From positions 310,001 to 374,000 of the forward strand of contig NZ_CP054010.1 in the NCBI RefSeq assembly GCF_013267595.1: a stretch of 64,000 bases of DNA, read 5' to 3'. Shown here in pieces: positions 10,533 to 55,920 of the stretch; the first letter of the stretch is position 1; each line of letters starts with the position of its first letter. Source of the DNA: Prevotella melaninogenica (lineage in GTDB: Bacteria; Bacteroidota; Bacteroidia; Bacteroidales; Bacteroidaceae). The notes beneath the pieces were generated by a model. That model had not been told where the DNA came from. It did no database searches and saw only the letters and a program-made list of their open reading frames with translations. Position numbers and translations under genes: made by a program.

Positions 10533-10876
10533 CCTTAAAACCTTTTTTTCTATTTATTTACGTGATGAGAAATCATTTTTTTAGTTCTTCCGTTAAATGT
10601 GTAGGCGCTTTTCGTATTGCTTTAACGTAAGAACCGAGGTTACTCATCAAACAAAAAGCATAGATCAAACAGTCATCTATCTATCCTACTATCACCCTTC
10701 GTCATTGAAGACTTCTCATTTTAAGACTTCGAAAATCTGCTGACAAGGGTTTGAAAAATCATTACATAATTTCAAAGAAAACATCTATAACTAACAGTAA
10801 AAACACATATAAGAAGCAAGTCTGCAACCAACAGGAAATCAATTAGTTATAAAGTAACACGAGAAAAGATGCTTAA

Positions 10877-10964
10877 TAAGACGTCAAAAGGGCGTTAGTA
10901 AGGGGCTTAAAGGGCACCTTTTGCAAGCCAATTGGGCGTCTTTTAGAAGCTAAAAGAGCATGTA
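10877..10964 (+). repeat. 4 x 22-bp intergenic array, family A, copy 1
   Basis: Four consecutive 22-bp units (10877-10898, 10899-10920, 10921-10942, 10943-10964). Each carries an AAAG-GGCGT-CTT-like core. The array is preceded by a GATGCTTAA block shared with the copy at 40796. It lies in the 1.06-kb gap between pyrI and the MATE gene. Apart from this array and the CAAGT repeat, the gap holds a G-rich stretch near 11071-11160 with a GTGCC-GAC-GGCAC hairpin and nothing that looks coding. Confidence 0.75.
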
Positions 10965-11336
10965 TTGGTTTTGAACTGCACAAAAATAGTTTACAAAAAC
11001 AAATGACATAGGAATAAATTGTGTTCTTCTGAAATATGGAATGACAAACTAAAAGTCTTATATAATAGGCACACGGAGTCACGGAGGGGACGGAGGTAAA
11101 CGCAATGTCACGCAGGTGCCGACGGCACAAGAGCGACGGAGATATAGCGTACAGATTCTTGATAACTACATTGCTTTGTTTTAATAATCTTTCGTCCTCT
11201 CCTTTTCTCCGTGTGACATTTCGTCAGAAACCTAACCTTAAGTGGCAAACTTTATCACTCCAAAATACTGAAGACCCTAAAAAATAGCAATAATAGGTTT
11301 TATAAACCTACAATTCATTATGCTACAAATAGGTTT

Positions 11337-22458: not shown

Positions 22459-22665
22459 TATGGTTTCTTATTTCAGAAAAGAGTAGGAGTTATTATGCAA
22501 ACTTAATAAAAAAAAGCGAAATTAGCAACAATTACACCTATTTATAATAATAACACTAACGAGATTCATCCAAAACAATAAGTCTACTTTTAGTTACTTC
22601 TTCTCATCATCTTGTAAAGTTAATAATCCTCGTCTTGTAATAAAAATTCATATCCTTAATTTTAA

Positions 22666-22753
22666 ACAAGGCTTAATAGCGTTCGAATTAAGGCTTAATT
22701 GGCATCCAAAAGACGCCCTTTTACGATGCTGTTAACGCCCTTTTGAAGGCTAA
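22666..22753 (-). repeat. 4 x 22-bp intergenic array, family A, copy 2
   Basis: Read on the minus strand, units are 22732-22753, 22710-22731, 22688-22709 and 22666-22687. The first two keep the AAAAGGGCGT core; the last two are degenerate and share TTAAGCCTT. It lies in the 530-bp gap between the MBOAT operon terminator and the yihY start. The rest of the gap is AT-rich with no recognisable gene. Confidence 0.75.
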
Positions 22754-22924
22754 TTAAGCACCTATTACCAAGCACTTTTATAATTAACTGATAGTCTGTT
22801 AGTTGCAAAGCTCCATATTAAGACTTTTATTTTGCTTATTTAAAGCATATCTACCCAGCTTTTTGTAAGTATTTTTTCGCAAGGCAAAGACAGCTATCAA
22901 CGTAGATTATAAGAAGCAAATAAA

Positions 22925-34215: not shown

Positions 34216-34359
34216 AGTTTGAATGCGTATTGTTATAAGGTGTATCAAGGTTGGTAAGCATAAAAATATAGTGATTTAACAAACACATTAGAATGAAATA
34301 GCAGATTTGATTCTAACCAAAAGTTTTTTGTAAACATTTTTTAAACCACAACTTATTTA

Positions 34360-34447
34360 TAGATGCTCTTTTGGCATTGAAAAGACGCCCTTTTGGCTTG
34401 CAAAAGGTGCTCTTTTGAAGTCTTATTAACGCCCTTTTAGAAGCCAA
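34360..34447 (-). repeat. 4 x 22-bp intergenic array, family A, copy 3 (best preserved)
   Basis: Read on the minus strand, units are 34426-34447, 34404-34425, 34382-34403 and 34360-34381. All keep CAAAAG or TAAAAG and three keep the GRGCRTCTT-like part. T4 and A4 tracts alternate every 11 bp across the middle of the array. It lies in the 700-bp gap between hcp and gmd; the remaining sequence up to the gmd promoter is AT-rich without a gene. Confidence 0.8.
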
Positions 34448-34713
34448 CTAAGCAGCTTTTCAAATGCAATCATGTAAGGCTCTCAAAATAAAAGAGTTAC
34501 AACACTAAGTAAAATGTTCCTTTTATGACTTGTATCAACGTAAAATACCAACGAAAATGTAAATAAAATTCAGCACAAAAACATTATAATTTGCAAATAA
34601 TCATTTCAATAATGACCTAACAAAGATTAGGATTGAATATCTACTTGAAAATAAATTAAATATAAATATGAAGTTTATTATCCTTAAATGGATAAATTAT
34701 TAATATTAATTTG

Positions 34714-40558: not shown

Positions 40559-40795
40559 GTGCTCATTTATAAGTAATAGAGGAAACCATAGGCGACATAC
40601 GTAGTTTATTAGAGGTTTCTCACGGCTTATTATAAGCATATTCCATCTTAAACCCAAACATCTTCAGTAATGAAATATATTTACACAACTTACGGATATT
40701 TCTGTTTAAAAACAAGAAATAGAAGCATTTTTCAAGACTCTAATAACTCGTTAGTTATCAAGACATTATAAAGTAGTACGAGAAAAGGTGCTTAA

Positions 40796-40883
40796 TTAGC
40801 TTTCAAAAGGGCGTTAGTTAGGCTCTTAAAGAGCATCTTTAACAAGTCTATTAAGGCTTAATTAGAATGCTATTCATGGTTAT
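40796..40883 (+). repeat. 4 x 22-bp intergenic array, family A, copy 4
   Basis: Units are 40796-40817, 40818-40839, 40840-40861 and 40862-40883. Units 1 and 2 keep the AAAAGGGCGTTAG and AAAGAGCATCTT forms; units 3 and 4 share TATTAAGGCTTAA-like sequence with copy 2. It shares an upstream AGTACGAGAAAAGGTGCTTAA block with copy 1. It lies in the convergent gap between the small acidic gene and the FadL-type gene. Confidence 0.75.
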
Positions 40884-40920
40884 TAAAAATGCTAATGAGG
40901 ATTTATTTTGACAAAACAAC

Positions 40921-45514: not shown

Positions 45515-45580
45515 TTTCTTACTTTTGGATAATTTTATATTCTACTTTACATCTATATATATATTGAACTTTCAAGTTTT

Positions 45581-45668
45581 TTTCATGAAGAAAAGAATTT
45601 CTTTTCATGAAGAAAAAGATTTATTTACGTGAAAATAAATAATTATTTTCATGAAAATAAATTAGCAC
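45581..45668. repeat. 4 x 22-bp intergenic array, family B
   Basis: CATGAA or CGTGAA occurs at 45584, 45606, 45628 and 45650, exactly 22 bp apart. Units are 45581-45602, 45603-45624, 45625-45646 and 45647-45668. The core is TTTTC-ATGAA-GAAAA. The sequence is unrelated to family A, but unit length and copy number are the same. T4/A4 tracts start at 45580, 45591, 45602 and 45613, 11 bp apart. It sits in the 420-bp gap between the GH25 start and the pfp terminator; the rest of the gap holds no gene. Confidence 0.75.
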
Positions 45669-53790: not shown

Positions 53791-53832
53791 AAAAAAAGAG
53801 TTATGACCCATTAATCATAGCTCCTTTTTTTT
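53791..53832 (+). terminator. Terminator of ygiQ
   Basis: AAAAAAAGAGTTATGA pairs with TCATAGCTCCTTTTTTTT (wobbles included) around an 8-base loop, then a T-run. Confidence 0.75.
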
Positions 53833-54068
53833 AGTTTTCATTGATAGCAGAGCTGAGACTTCACTGTCAAATAGTTTTTATAACATACCAAAGATGTTGA
53901 TTGAAGAAATACAGAAAGGACTATGAAAACTAAATCTACATTGTTATGAAATAATATGACAAAATAAAAGATAACCGGTTCAGAATCATTCCCGAAGGTA
54001 AGTTCTCAACAAATTCATAACCAACTAATATCCAAAGAAATAGAAACAACGACAAAGAAGAGGCTTAG

Positions 54069-54156
54069 CTTGATTCAAGAAGGGCGTTAGTTAGCCCCAT
54101 GAAGGGCGTCTTCAATAAGCAAGACTGGCCTTGTTTAGAAATCAAAAGAGCATGTC
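54069..54156 (+). repeat. 4 x 22-bp intergenic array, family A, copy 5
   Basis: Units are 54069-54090, 54091-54112, 54113-54134 and 54135-54156. Units 1, 2 and 4 keep GAAGGGCGTTAG, GAAGGGCGTCTT and AAAAGAGCATGT; unit 3 is diverged. It lies in the 1-kb gap between ygiQ and the Panacea pair. Confidence 0.75.
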
Positions 54157-54299
54157 TTATATTCTTGATTAGATTTTTTATTACAAAACAACGGAATAAG
54201 TGATGAGTAAAGAGCCGACAAGCAACTCCTTTTATCATCTATGCTACGATAAAGGATGAGCATAAATGATATACTTTAGGTATATATAGAAAATTTATA

Positions 54300-54660
54300 A
54301 CTAACAGTTTGCCAGTATGATGAGAGTTCCTTTTCGAACATCTGACTACAAAAGACTTTCAAGGTAGCAGTCATTGACTATTGCACTGCACGAATAAGTC
54401 TTTCCCTATAGGCAACCCGTGCTTTGGTTACTATGACCTCTGCTGACTTCTCACGACAAGCTTGACTTCGTTATGGTATAGCAAAGACATCATCTTCACC
54501 TGCGCCCGTGAGACCTCCTCAGATTCCCCCCTTCCTTTGCCTATGTAATTCCCGCTATCATGCTTACTCGTGATTTGAACCCGTTAGATAATGCTCATGC
54601 CGAGCGTACCAAAGAAAGAACATGCGTTCTCATCTGTCCTTACTTTAAGCATACTGGTAA
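54300..54660. other. Unexplained higher-GC block, possible decayed mobile element
   Basis: This stretch is visibly less AT-rich than the rest of the 1-kb gap. It has short open pieces on both strands (plus: MTSADFSRQA and a stop; minus: a 29-residue frame containing KSAEVIVTKARVAYRER) but no complete gene. No terminal repeats seen. It may be the remains of a transposon or intron, or a structured RNA. I cannot name a family. Confidence 0.35.
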
Positions 54661-54761
54661 AGGCAAAAATAATAAATTACTATTAAGAATGATTTGTTAT
54701 GCTTGTAATATAATTTAGTTAGTTTAACAAAATAGTGGTAGCATGAATACAAAATAATACG

Positions 54762-54769
54762 TATTTTTG
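54762..54769 (+). promoter_or_regulatory. -7 box for the Panacea pair
   Basis: TATTTTTG matches TAnnTTTG and lies 22 bp before the ATG at 54792. Confidence 0.55.
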
Positions 54770-54791
54770 CAATAAATAAAAGAAAGATAGT

Positions 54792-55328
54792 ATGTGCGAT
54801 ATTAAGGACGTAGCCAGATATATTGGCTTATCACTAATTAATAAAGGCTTATCAGTTAGTCCATTGAAGCTCCAAAAAATACTTTATTATGTTCAATCAT
54901 GGAATATGGTAATCTTTGGTCGGAACAAAACATTGTTTGCTCAAGCTCCACAAGCTTGGGTTAATGGTCCTGTATATCCAGAGATTTATTATGAATACAA
55001 AGATAAGGTACCGAATATGTGTGATTATTTAGATGAAACTAATTTTGGTACTGATAGTGCTCATATCGATAAAACTCTTCAAGAACTGGCAGAGAAATTA
55101 TCATTCTCAAAAGACCAAATAGAGTTATTAGATTCAATATTCATGTTATATGGCTCGAAATCGCAGAATGATCTTATATTTTTAACTCATTCTGAAAAGC
55201 CATGGGTAGAAGCTCGTGGTAGTCTTAACCCTTTTCAACGTTCTGGAGAGAGTATTAGTCTAGATACAATGTATAGTTTTTATAAAGATAGATACGATAG
55301 AAATCGGAAGCACCATGAAGCTCAATGA
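54792..55328 (+). CDS. Panacea-domain (DUF4065, SocA/GepA-like) protein, probable antitoxin
   Basis: A 178-aa protein made almost entirely of a Panacea/DUF4065 domain: VARYIGLSLINKG, SPLKLQKILYYVQSW, the FAQAPQAWVNGPVYPEIYYEYK block and a C-terminal KPWVEARG. Panacea proteins serve as antitoxins next to many different toxins, and as SocA in Caulobacter. It overlaps the next gene by 14 bp, as expected for a co-expressed pair. Local base use is more AT-rich than the flanking genes, in line with acquired DNA. Confidence 0.85.
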   Translation: MCDIKDVARYIGLSLINKGLSVSPLKLQKILYYVQSWNMVIFGRNKTLFAQAPQAWVNGPVYPEIYYEYKDKVPNMCDYLDETNFGTDSAHIDKTLQELAEKLSFSKDQIELLDSIFMLYGSKSQNDLIFLTHSEKPWVEARGSLNPFQRSGESISLDTMYSFYKDRYDRNRKHHEAQ

Positions 55329-55815
55329 ATGTGATATTGATATACAACGTGAAGAATTAGAAACAATCAACAAACCTGATTCTTTTAAGAATAAGATTCA
55401 TACAGATGATGTTTTGATATCAAAGAATTTACCAATAGTCATTAAGTATGATTATATTGATTTGGGCAAAACTGATTATCATTTTCATCAAGATTTTACT
55501 TTGAGAGATACGCAAGCCTATTTCTCTAAGATGAAAGAGATATCATCTAACACCATAAACAATCTAGAGAAAATAGCAAAGGAACATCACTTCTATCCTT
55601 CACCATTCACAGGGAAGGTAAGAGAGAATATCCTAAAAATTATGCCTAATGTAGATGAGAGCATTATTATCTATCACTTTGGACTATATGAATGTGACAG
55701 CAGAGAAGCAAGAAGAGAAACTGGAGAAAGGTCTCCTAGAATCTATTTTGTGTTAGGCAATTATGGCTTTATCTATATCTTATTTTTTGATCCTTTCCAT
55801 GAATTGAATCCTTAA
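55315..55815 (+). CDS. Probable toxin partner of the Panacea protein, family unknown
   Basis: A 166-aa protein encoded with a 14-bp overlap behind the Panacea gene. The C-terminal half has IYHFGLYECDSREARRETG and IYFVLGNYGFIYILFFDPFHELNP; the beta-strand then DPFHE ending is reminiscent of small nuclease or RelE-like folds, but I cannot place it. The toxin role is inferred from position only. It lacks a signal peptide. Confidence 0.6.
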   Translation: MKLNECDIDIQREELETINKPDSFKNKIHTDDVLISKNLPIVIKYDYIDLGKTDYHFHQDFTLRDTQAYFSKMKEISSNTINNLEKIAKEHHFYPSPFTGKVRENILKIMPNVDESIIIYHFGLYECDSREARRETGERSPRIYFVLGNYGFIYILFFDPFHELNP

Positions 55816-55920
55816 ATAAATACCAGCGAGTCTGTCTAAAATTAAATCAATACATGACAAGATTATTTCTTACCTTATGTCGATAATAAAAAAGAGCTAT
55901 ACAATACCTTAACAATATTT

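Follow-up and report, generated by a model that had tools for sequence, protein, structure and literature searches.

An intergenic 22-bp array dispersed over the genome of Prevotella melaninogenica (G000) gives good support to selection acting on length and phase, as opposed to recent duplication. The array may be a set of phased binding sites for a candidate DNA-binding protein, a reading of the sequence to which about an even chance is given. The window analysed was a 64,000-bp stretch corresponding to positions 310,001 to 374,000 of contig C1 of G000 (3.35 Mb in total, with one contig of 1.40 Mb and one of 1.95 Mb). P. denticola and P. veroralis came out as the closest named relatives of G000, and these, the genome size and the presence of two replicons point to the P. 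melaninogenica group.

The sequence-only reading had described five copies in the window, starting at 10877, 22666, 34360, 40796 and 54069, each of exactly four 22-bp units. All five were found to split into four such units without gaps. A covariance model of the array gave exactly five own-strand matches in the window, scoring 88 to 113 bits; weaker reverse-strand matches were also obtained because the array is nearly palindromic. The 22-bp period stands but the unit count does not. The array is comprised of five 15-bp dyad sites and four 7-bp linkers, 103 bp in total, and the four units are the centre-to-centre steps between sites. The sites are of the type AAAAG-NNNNN-CTTTT, with AAAAG-RYGCC-CTTTT as the cleanest form. 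The fifth site is inverted in most copies. An upstream block, GAGAAAA(A/G)GTGCTTAA, had been noted beside two copies. It is present, but it is not separate from the array as it contains the fifth site; it includes AAAAGRTGCTTAA, the reverse complement of TTAAGCAYCTTTT.

Alignment of the copies placed the array inside a larger conserved element, approximately 262 bp long. Read in the same direction as the 34360 copy, the element has a left end of the type TTTTGTAAA-N-AWTTTTCA, and approximately 30 bp separate this end from the array. An imperfect inverted repeat, TATAACTAATTGATTTCCTGTTGGTTACAAA, lies approximately 10 bp beyond the array and the right end carries another motif, TTTTGTAAATATTTTC in type. 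Some copies lie within a 586-bp MITE, described below. The features in the window are as follows.

34358..34460, plus strand: 103-bp five-site array (the copy first noted at 34360-34447), 112.9 bits; offsets derived from the model agree
34323..34588, plus strand: conserved element of approximately 262 bp around the 34358 array, without MITE arms; right end approximate
22664..22766, plus strand: 103-bp array, without MITE arms, 93.5 bits
22631..22880, plus strand: conserved element around the 22664 array
10864..10966, minus strand: 103-bp array within a MITE remnant, 111.4 bits
10741..11002, minus strand: conserved element around the 10864 array; inner end approximate
10583..10740, minus strand: right arm of the 586-bp MITE, left arm absent (right-arm score 112 bits, left none), with paired terminal inverted repeat (TIR) copies at 10583-10597 and 10621-10635
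40783..40885, minus strand: 103-bp array, without MITE arms, 89.7 bits
40661..40919, minus strand: conserved element around the 40783 array; inner end approximate
54056..54158, minus strand: 103-bp array, without MITE arms, 88.1 bits
53932..54191, minus strand: conserved element around the 54056 array; inner end approximate

A 31-bp pattern of sites 4 and 5 had 187 matches genome-wide at up to three mismatches, while the reversed-pattern control had none. The copies of the element (approximately 190) are dispersed over both contigs of G000. The five window copies had been described as intergenic, in either orientation and next to unrelated genes, and this was borne out: none of 112 copies overlapped a called gene. 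The 102 copies classified by gene context were 33 convergent, 51 tandem and 18 divergent, based on approximate gene calls with some genes missed. Within tandem pairs the array showed no preferred orientation relative to the genes (31 compared to 20). A role as operator of a neighbouring gene was rejected; by the same approximate gene calls most copies are over 150 bp away from a start codon, and every orientation occurs. Among 200 genomes from the genus, 8 contained the sequence pattern and the richest held 187, 193, 176 and 78 copies. With the covariance model matches were found in 31 of 198 genomes. The element was abundant in seven of these, with at least 19 matches each (G000, G132, G146, G124, G253, G272 and G283). 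No match to the element was found in the plasmid records searched.

The array was exactly 103 bp in 125 of 126 aligned G000 copies. By comparison the adjacent 103-bp segment was off its modal length in 23 of the 126, and 40 copies deviated in the 31-bp left segment. To avoid choosing copies by pattern, 400 kb of the sister genome G132, taken without selection, were scanned with a gap-permitting profile. Arrays were 103 bp in 33 of 33 cases, with the adjacent segment off its modal length in 8 of 33. A single-site scan of the same 400 kb, in which the number of sites was not assumed, gave 33 runs at 22-bp spacing, a single pair at 21 bp and another single pair at 23 bp. Above threshold, 24 runs had five sites, seven had four, two had three and none exceeded five. 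In the distant genome G283 the same array length was found in 18 of 18 copies. The constant unit number proposed earlier thus holds, as five sites, in the genomes examined that have many copies. It fails in two copies from few-copy genomes (L233 and L236, one per genome), each short by exactly one 22-bp unit.

Sequence divergence was compared over 19 copies common to G000 and G132. Coding flanks differed by approximately 3.4%, intergenic arms by 8.5 to 11.5% and the array by 5.7 to 6.0% with no gap column. Within these orthologous arrays the sites differed by 4.6% (66/1,425) and the linkers by 9.4% (50/532) (p = 1.4e-4). As sites diverge less than linkers, and linkers diverge at the local intergenic rate, linker sequence drifts although the linkers keep their length, and the sites are under constraint. 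In G283 the information content was 1.6 to 2.0 bits in the site arms and 0.9 to 1.5 bits in the linkers. The earlier proposal of selection on length and phase is upheld both by this contrast between constrained sites and free linkers and by the constancy of array length beside variable neighbouring DNA. The linker rate carries a caveat. The element segment to the right of the array (offsets 98-222) diverged by approximately 16% between G000 and G132 orthologues compared to approximately 10% in flanking intergenic DNA. This fast divergence suggests exchange between non-allelic copies, which could inflate linker divergence and overstate the contrast between sites and linkers. Divergent copies occupying one and the same place also point to exchange between copies.

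It is highly improbable that such exchange, together with quasi-palindrome correction, accounts for the array by homogenizing the copies and so keeping dyads and length alike with no function involved. The signs of exchange, the rearrangements seen at copies and several G283 copies in which site 4 is a mirror image of site 5 are consistent with this explanation. Exchange would homogenize the linkers too, however, and it would not keep the linkers at one length as their sequence changes.

Phased binding sites should keep one spacing and conserve their dyads, with the linkers free to change. Conserved sites, constant spacing and free linker sequence were all found, and the array is read as sites of this kind. 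The five sites would be the targets of a sequence-specific, probably dimeric, DNA-binding protein contacting the AAAAG-NNNNN-CTTTT-type dyad. Steps of 22 bp, about two helical turns, would place bound dimers nearly on one face of the DNA and cooperative binding would be possible. The arrays would be displayed in some 190 copies of the non-coding intergenic element, which may have spread to some Prevotella species but not others, partly carried inside the 586-bp MITE. Protein binding, cooperativity and a chromosome-wide role in DNA architecture or global regulation, as opposed to control of single neighbours, are inferred. Several points run against phased binding: exchange between copies could exaggerate the site-linker contrast, 22 bp slightly exceeds two turns of B-DNA, and strand-biased folding and pairing-keeping substitutions in G000 hint at RNA.

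On the RNA reading the array would be transcribed as a long imperfect hairpin acting in mRNA stability, as an RNase III site (NEMIS- or BOX-like) or as a small RNA. An RNA gene was first favoured from the strand-asymmetric folding. In G000 the strand opposite the 34360 orientation folded better in 121 of 126 copies (mean -33.6 compared to -25.1 kcal/mol), with a fold z of about -3.6. Substitutions keeping G.U pairs on this strand numbered 20 compared to 7. Two pairs in the array were strongly compensated, and pairs changed on both sides numbered 9 compared to 5.2. Against this, the strand asymmetry was absent in G283. Shuffling linkers between copies shifted the fold energy by only approximately 0.1 to 0.25 kcal/mol in G000 and in the wrong direction in G283. 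Co-evolving base pairing was therefore not supported, as linker shuffling left the folding no weaker. The percentage paired, 87.4, was at the shuffled level (87.0). The arrays had no Rfam match at gathering score, and the lack of a preferred orientation relative to genes also speaks against a transcribed unit. The symmetry in G283, the near-null linker swap and covariation little above shuffles indicate that folding is mostly a by-product of the repeated dyad. With its place in the analysis lowered on these grounds, an RNA function is considered quite unlikely.

The possibility that a transposon covers the copies, raised in the sequence-only reading as a challenge to its own claim, applies to part of the family. 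One or both arms of the 586-bp MITE were found in 67 of 127 copies examined and 60 had no detectable arms. In the window only the 10877 copy has an arm, the right one. The MITE is short and non-coding with ends GGTTCTTCCGTTAAA...TTTAACGGAAGAACC. Its TIR is GGTTCTTCCGTTAAATGC, and the right end holds a further pair of inverted TIR copies at a distance of 38 bp from each other. A/T-rich target duplications of 8 bp flanked 7 of 18 full copies (six exact, one with one mismatch), compared to a mean of 0.44 and a maximum of 4 in shuffles. Armless copies prevail in G283, which shows that the element exists independently of the MITE. We infer that the MITE captured the array element.

ISL3 genes were rejected as the parent of the MITE as they have other ends, and an IS4-like parent was rejected as the TIRs mismatch. 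A near-identical insertion sequence in ten copies (L192:1740-3260 and nine other places) encodes a 405-amino-acid DDE_Tnp_1 transposase. Its TIR, CAATAGTCCGTTAAAT, has only TCCGTTAAAT in common with that of the MITE, and the target duplication is 8 bp long, TAACTATA. No cognate insertion sequence with the MITE TIR was found among the ISL3 genes and this ten-copy element, so the label MITE is a purely structural one.

The sites could instead be the subterminal transposase or recombinase sites of the mobile element itself, comparable to those of Tn7 ends. Only correctly spaced arrays could then spread, with no gain to the host. The high copy number is in keeping with this, as is the presence of the array in a complete MITE that has TIRs and is flanked by target duplications of 8 bp. 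So are the similar motifs at both ends of armless copies, although within one armless copy the similarity between the two ends was weak (29 of 500 shuffles were equally similar with a crude motif finder). Target duplications at armless ends were not above chance, and the ISL3 genes and the ten-copy element supplied no cognate transposase. All testable copies with intact flanks were common to G000 and G132, with no insertion differences among them, so recent activity was not seen. Copies fixed at a position common to both genomes still have constrained sites, where dead insertions should drift. Sites serving only their own mobility are thus judged unlikely.

Array copies also occupy rearrangement points, for example the 54069 copy. 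This element forms the edge of a stretch (53831-55903) that differs in the sister genomes G132 and G146, where approximately 0.5 kb is found in place of approximately 2 kb with ORFs at 54792-55328 and 55315-55815. A borderline Rfam match to group-II-D1D4-1 (54398-54467, minus strand; 35.3 bits, gathering score 35) lies within the same variable stretch. At L047 an insertion of approximately 350 bp in G000, absent in G132, lies immediately to the right of the array element (1476-1824, oriented query). In G124 an array at a corresponding place points the other way, which raised the possibility of site-specific inversion. This was rejected; the copies involved are of the MITE type, and separate insertion events are the best reading.

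REP/BIME, ERIC, NEMIS and BOX are high-copy intergenic palindromic repeats able to fold. The unit number of boxB is not fixed, whereas the number of sites in the array is. A REP/RAYT system was rejected, with PF01797 (Y1/RAYT transposase) absent from G000. TnsB sites at Tn7 ends and plasmid iterons present a few protein sites, fixed in number, at approximately 22-bp spacing. The array would work in the same manner without membership being implied; its sites are dyads in approximately 190 places, and no Tn7 genes or replication gene were shown beside array copies. BrickBuilt of Porphyromonas gingivalis is an intergenic MITE with a 23-nt internal array of 1 to 22.8 units, present in 19 copies (PMC4596501). 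The intergenic location, the link to a MITE and the similar period of the internal array recall the present element. The array family falls outside BrickBuilt, which has GAGACCTTTGCA-like TIRs and variable units compared to the TIR GGTTCTTCCGTTAAA, a 22-bp step, five fixed sites and approximately 187 copies here.

The earlier statement of knowing no named element with such a layout needs qualification. By its published description, the closest named element appears to be PINSR of P. intermedia. PINSR is 188 bp long and of unknown function, with 177 to 184 intergenic, non-coding copies per genome on both chromosomes (PMC4755523). It is described there as lacking terminal inverted repeats, with most positions common to strains, as involved in rearrangements and as belonging to one Prevotella clade (PMC4755523). 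The element here is similarly intergenic and non-coding (187 matches; 0/112 gene overlap), and the part from its left end through the inverted repeat measures approximately 185 bp, close to the length of PINSR. Armless copies lack the MITE TIR, and about half of the copies carry MITE arms. No 22-bp array is reported in the PINSR paper (PMC4755523). By PCR, PINSR was reportedly not found outside the P. intermedia clade and P. denticola and P. veroralis were negative (PMC4755523). PINSR is said to be limited to the P. intermedia/nigrescens clade. The present element is abundant in seven genomes including G283. The idea that G283 is an indole-positive relative of P. intermedia gained no support, as no strong tryptophanase match was obtained there. 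The array element is possibly a relative of PINSR.

A second family of dispersed 22-bp arrays (family B), unrelated to the first, has four units around the dyad TTTTCATGAAAA, with a window copy at 45577-45661. There is little conservation outside the array. At least 40 copies exist. Four units were found in 11 of the 12 copies read (L259-L270) and five in L269. Among 40 distinct places listed, 35 are on contig C2 and 27 of those lie within 1.19-1.93 Mb.

In its widest form the phased-binding reading would be a chromosome-wide Prevotella system not described so far. A protein would bind the approximately 190 five-site, 22-bp-phased arrays on both replicons, perhaps with a paralogue on family B. 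Its role would be genome organization or regulation, and the arrays would owe their dispersal to mobile elements. This wide form is tentative and rather unlikely. High-copy intergenic repeats are usually written off as mobile debris. The fixed number and spacing of sites across species, with drifting linkers, shows that this repeat carries measurable constraint. If the element is PINSR, a repeat so far unexplained would gain a concrete anatomy and a testable mechanism. The ligand of the array can be sought with a 103-bp bait.
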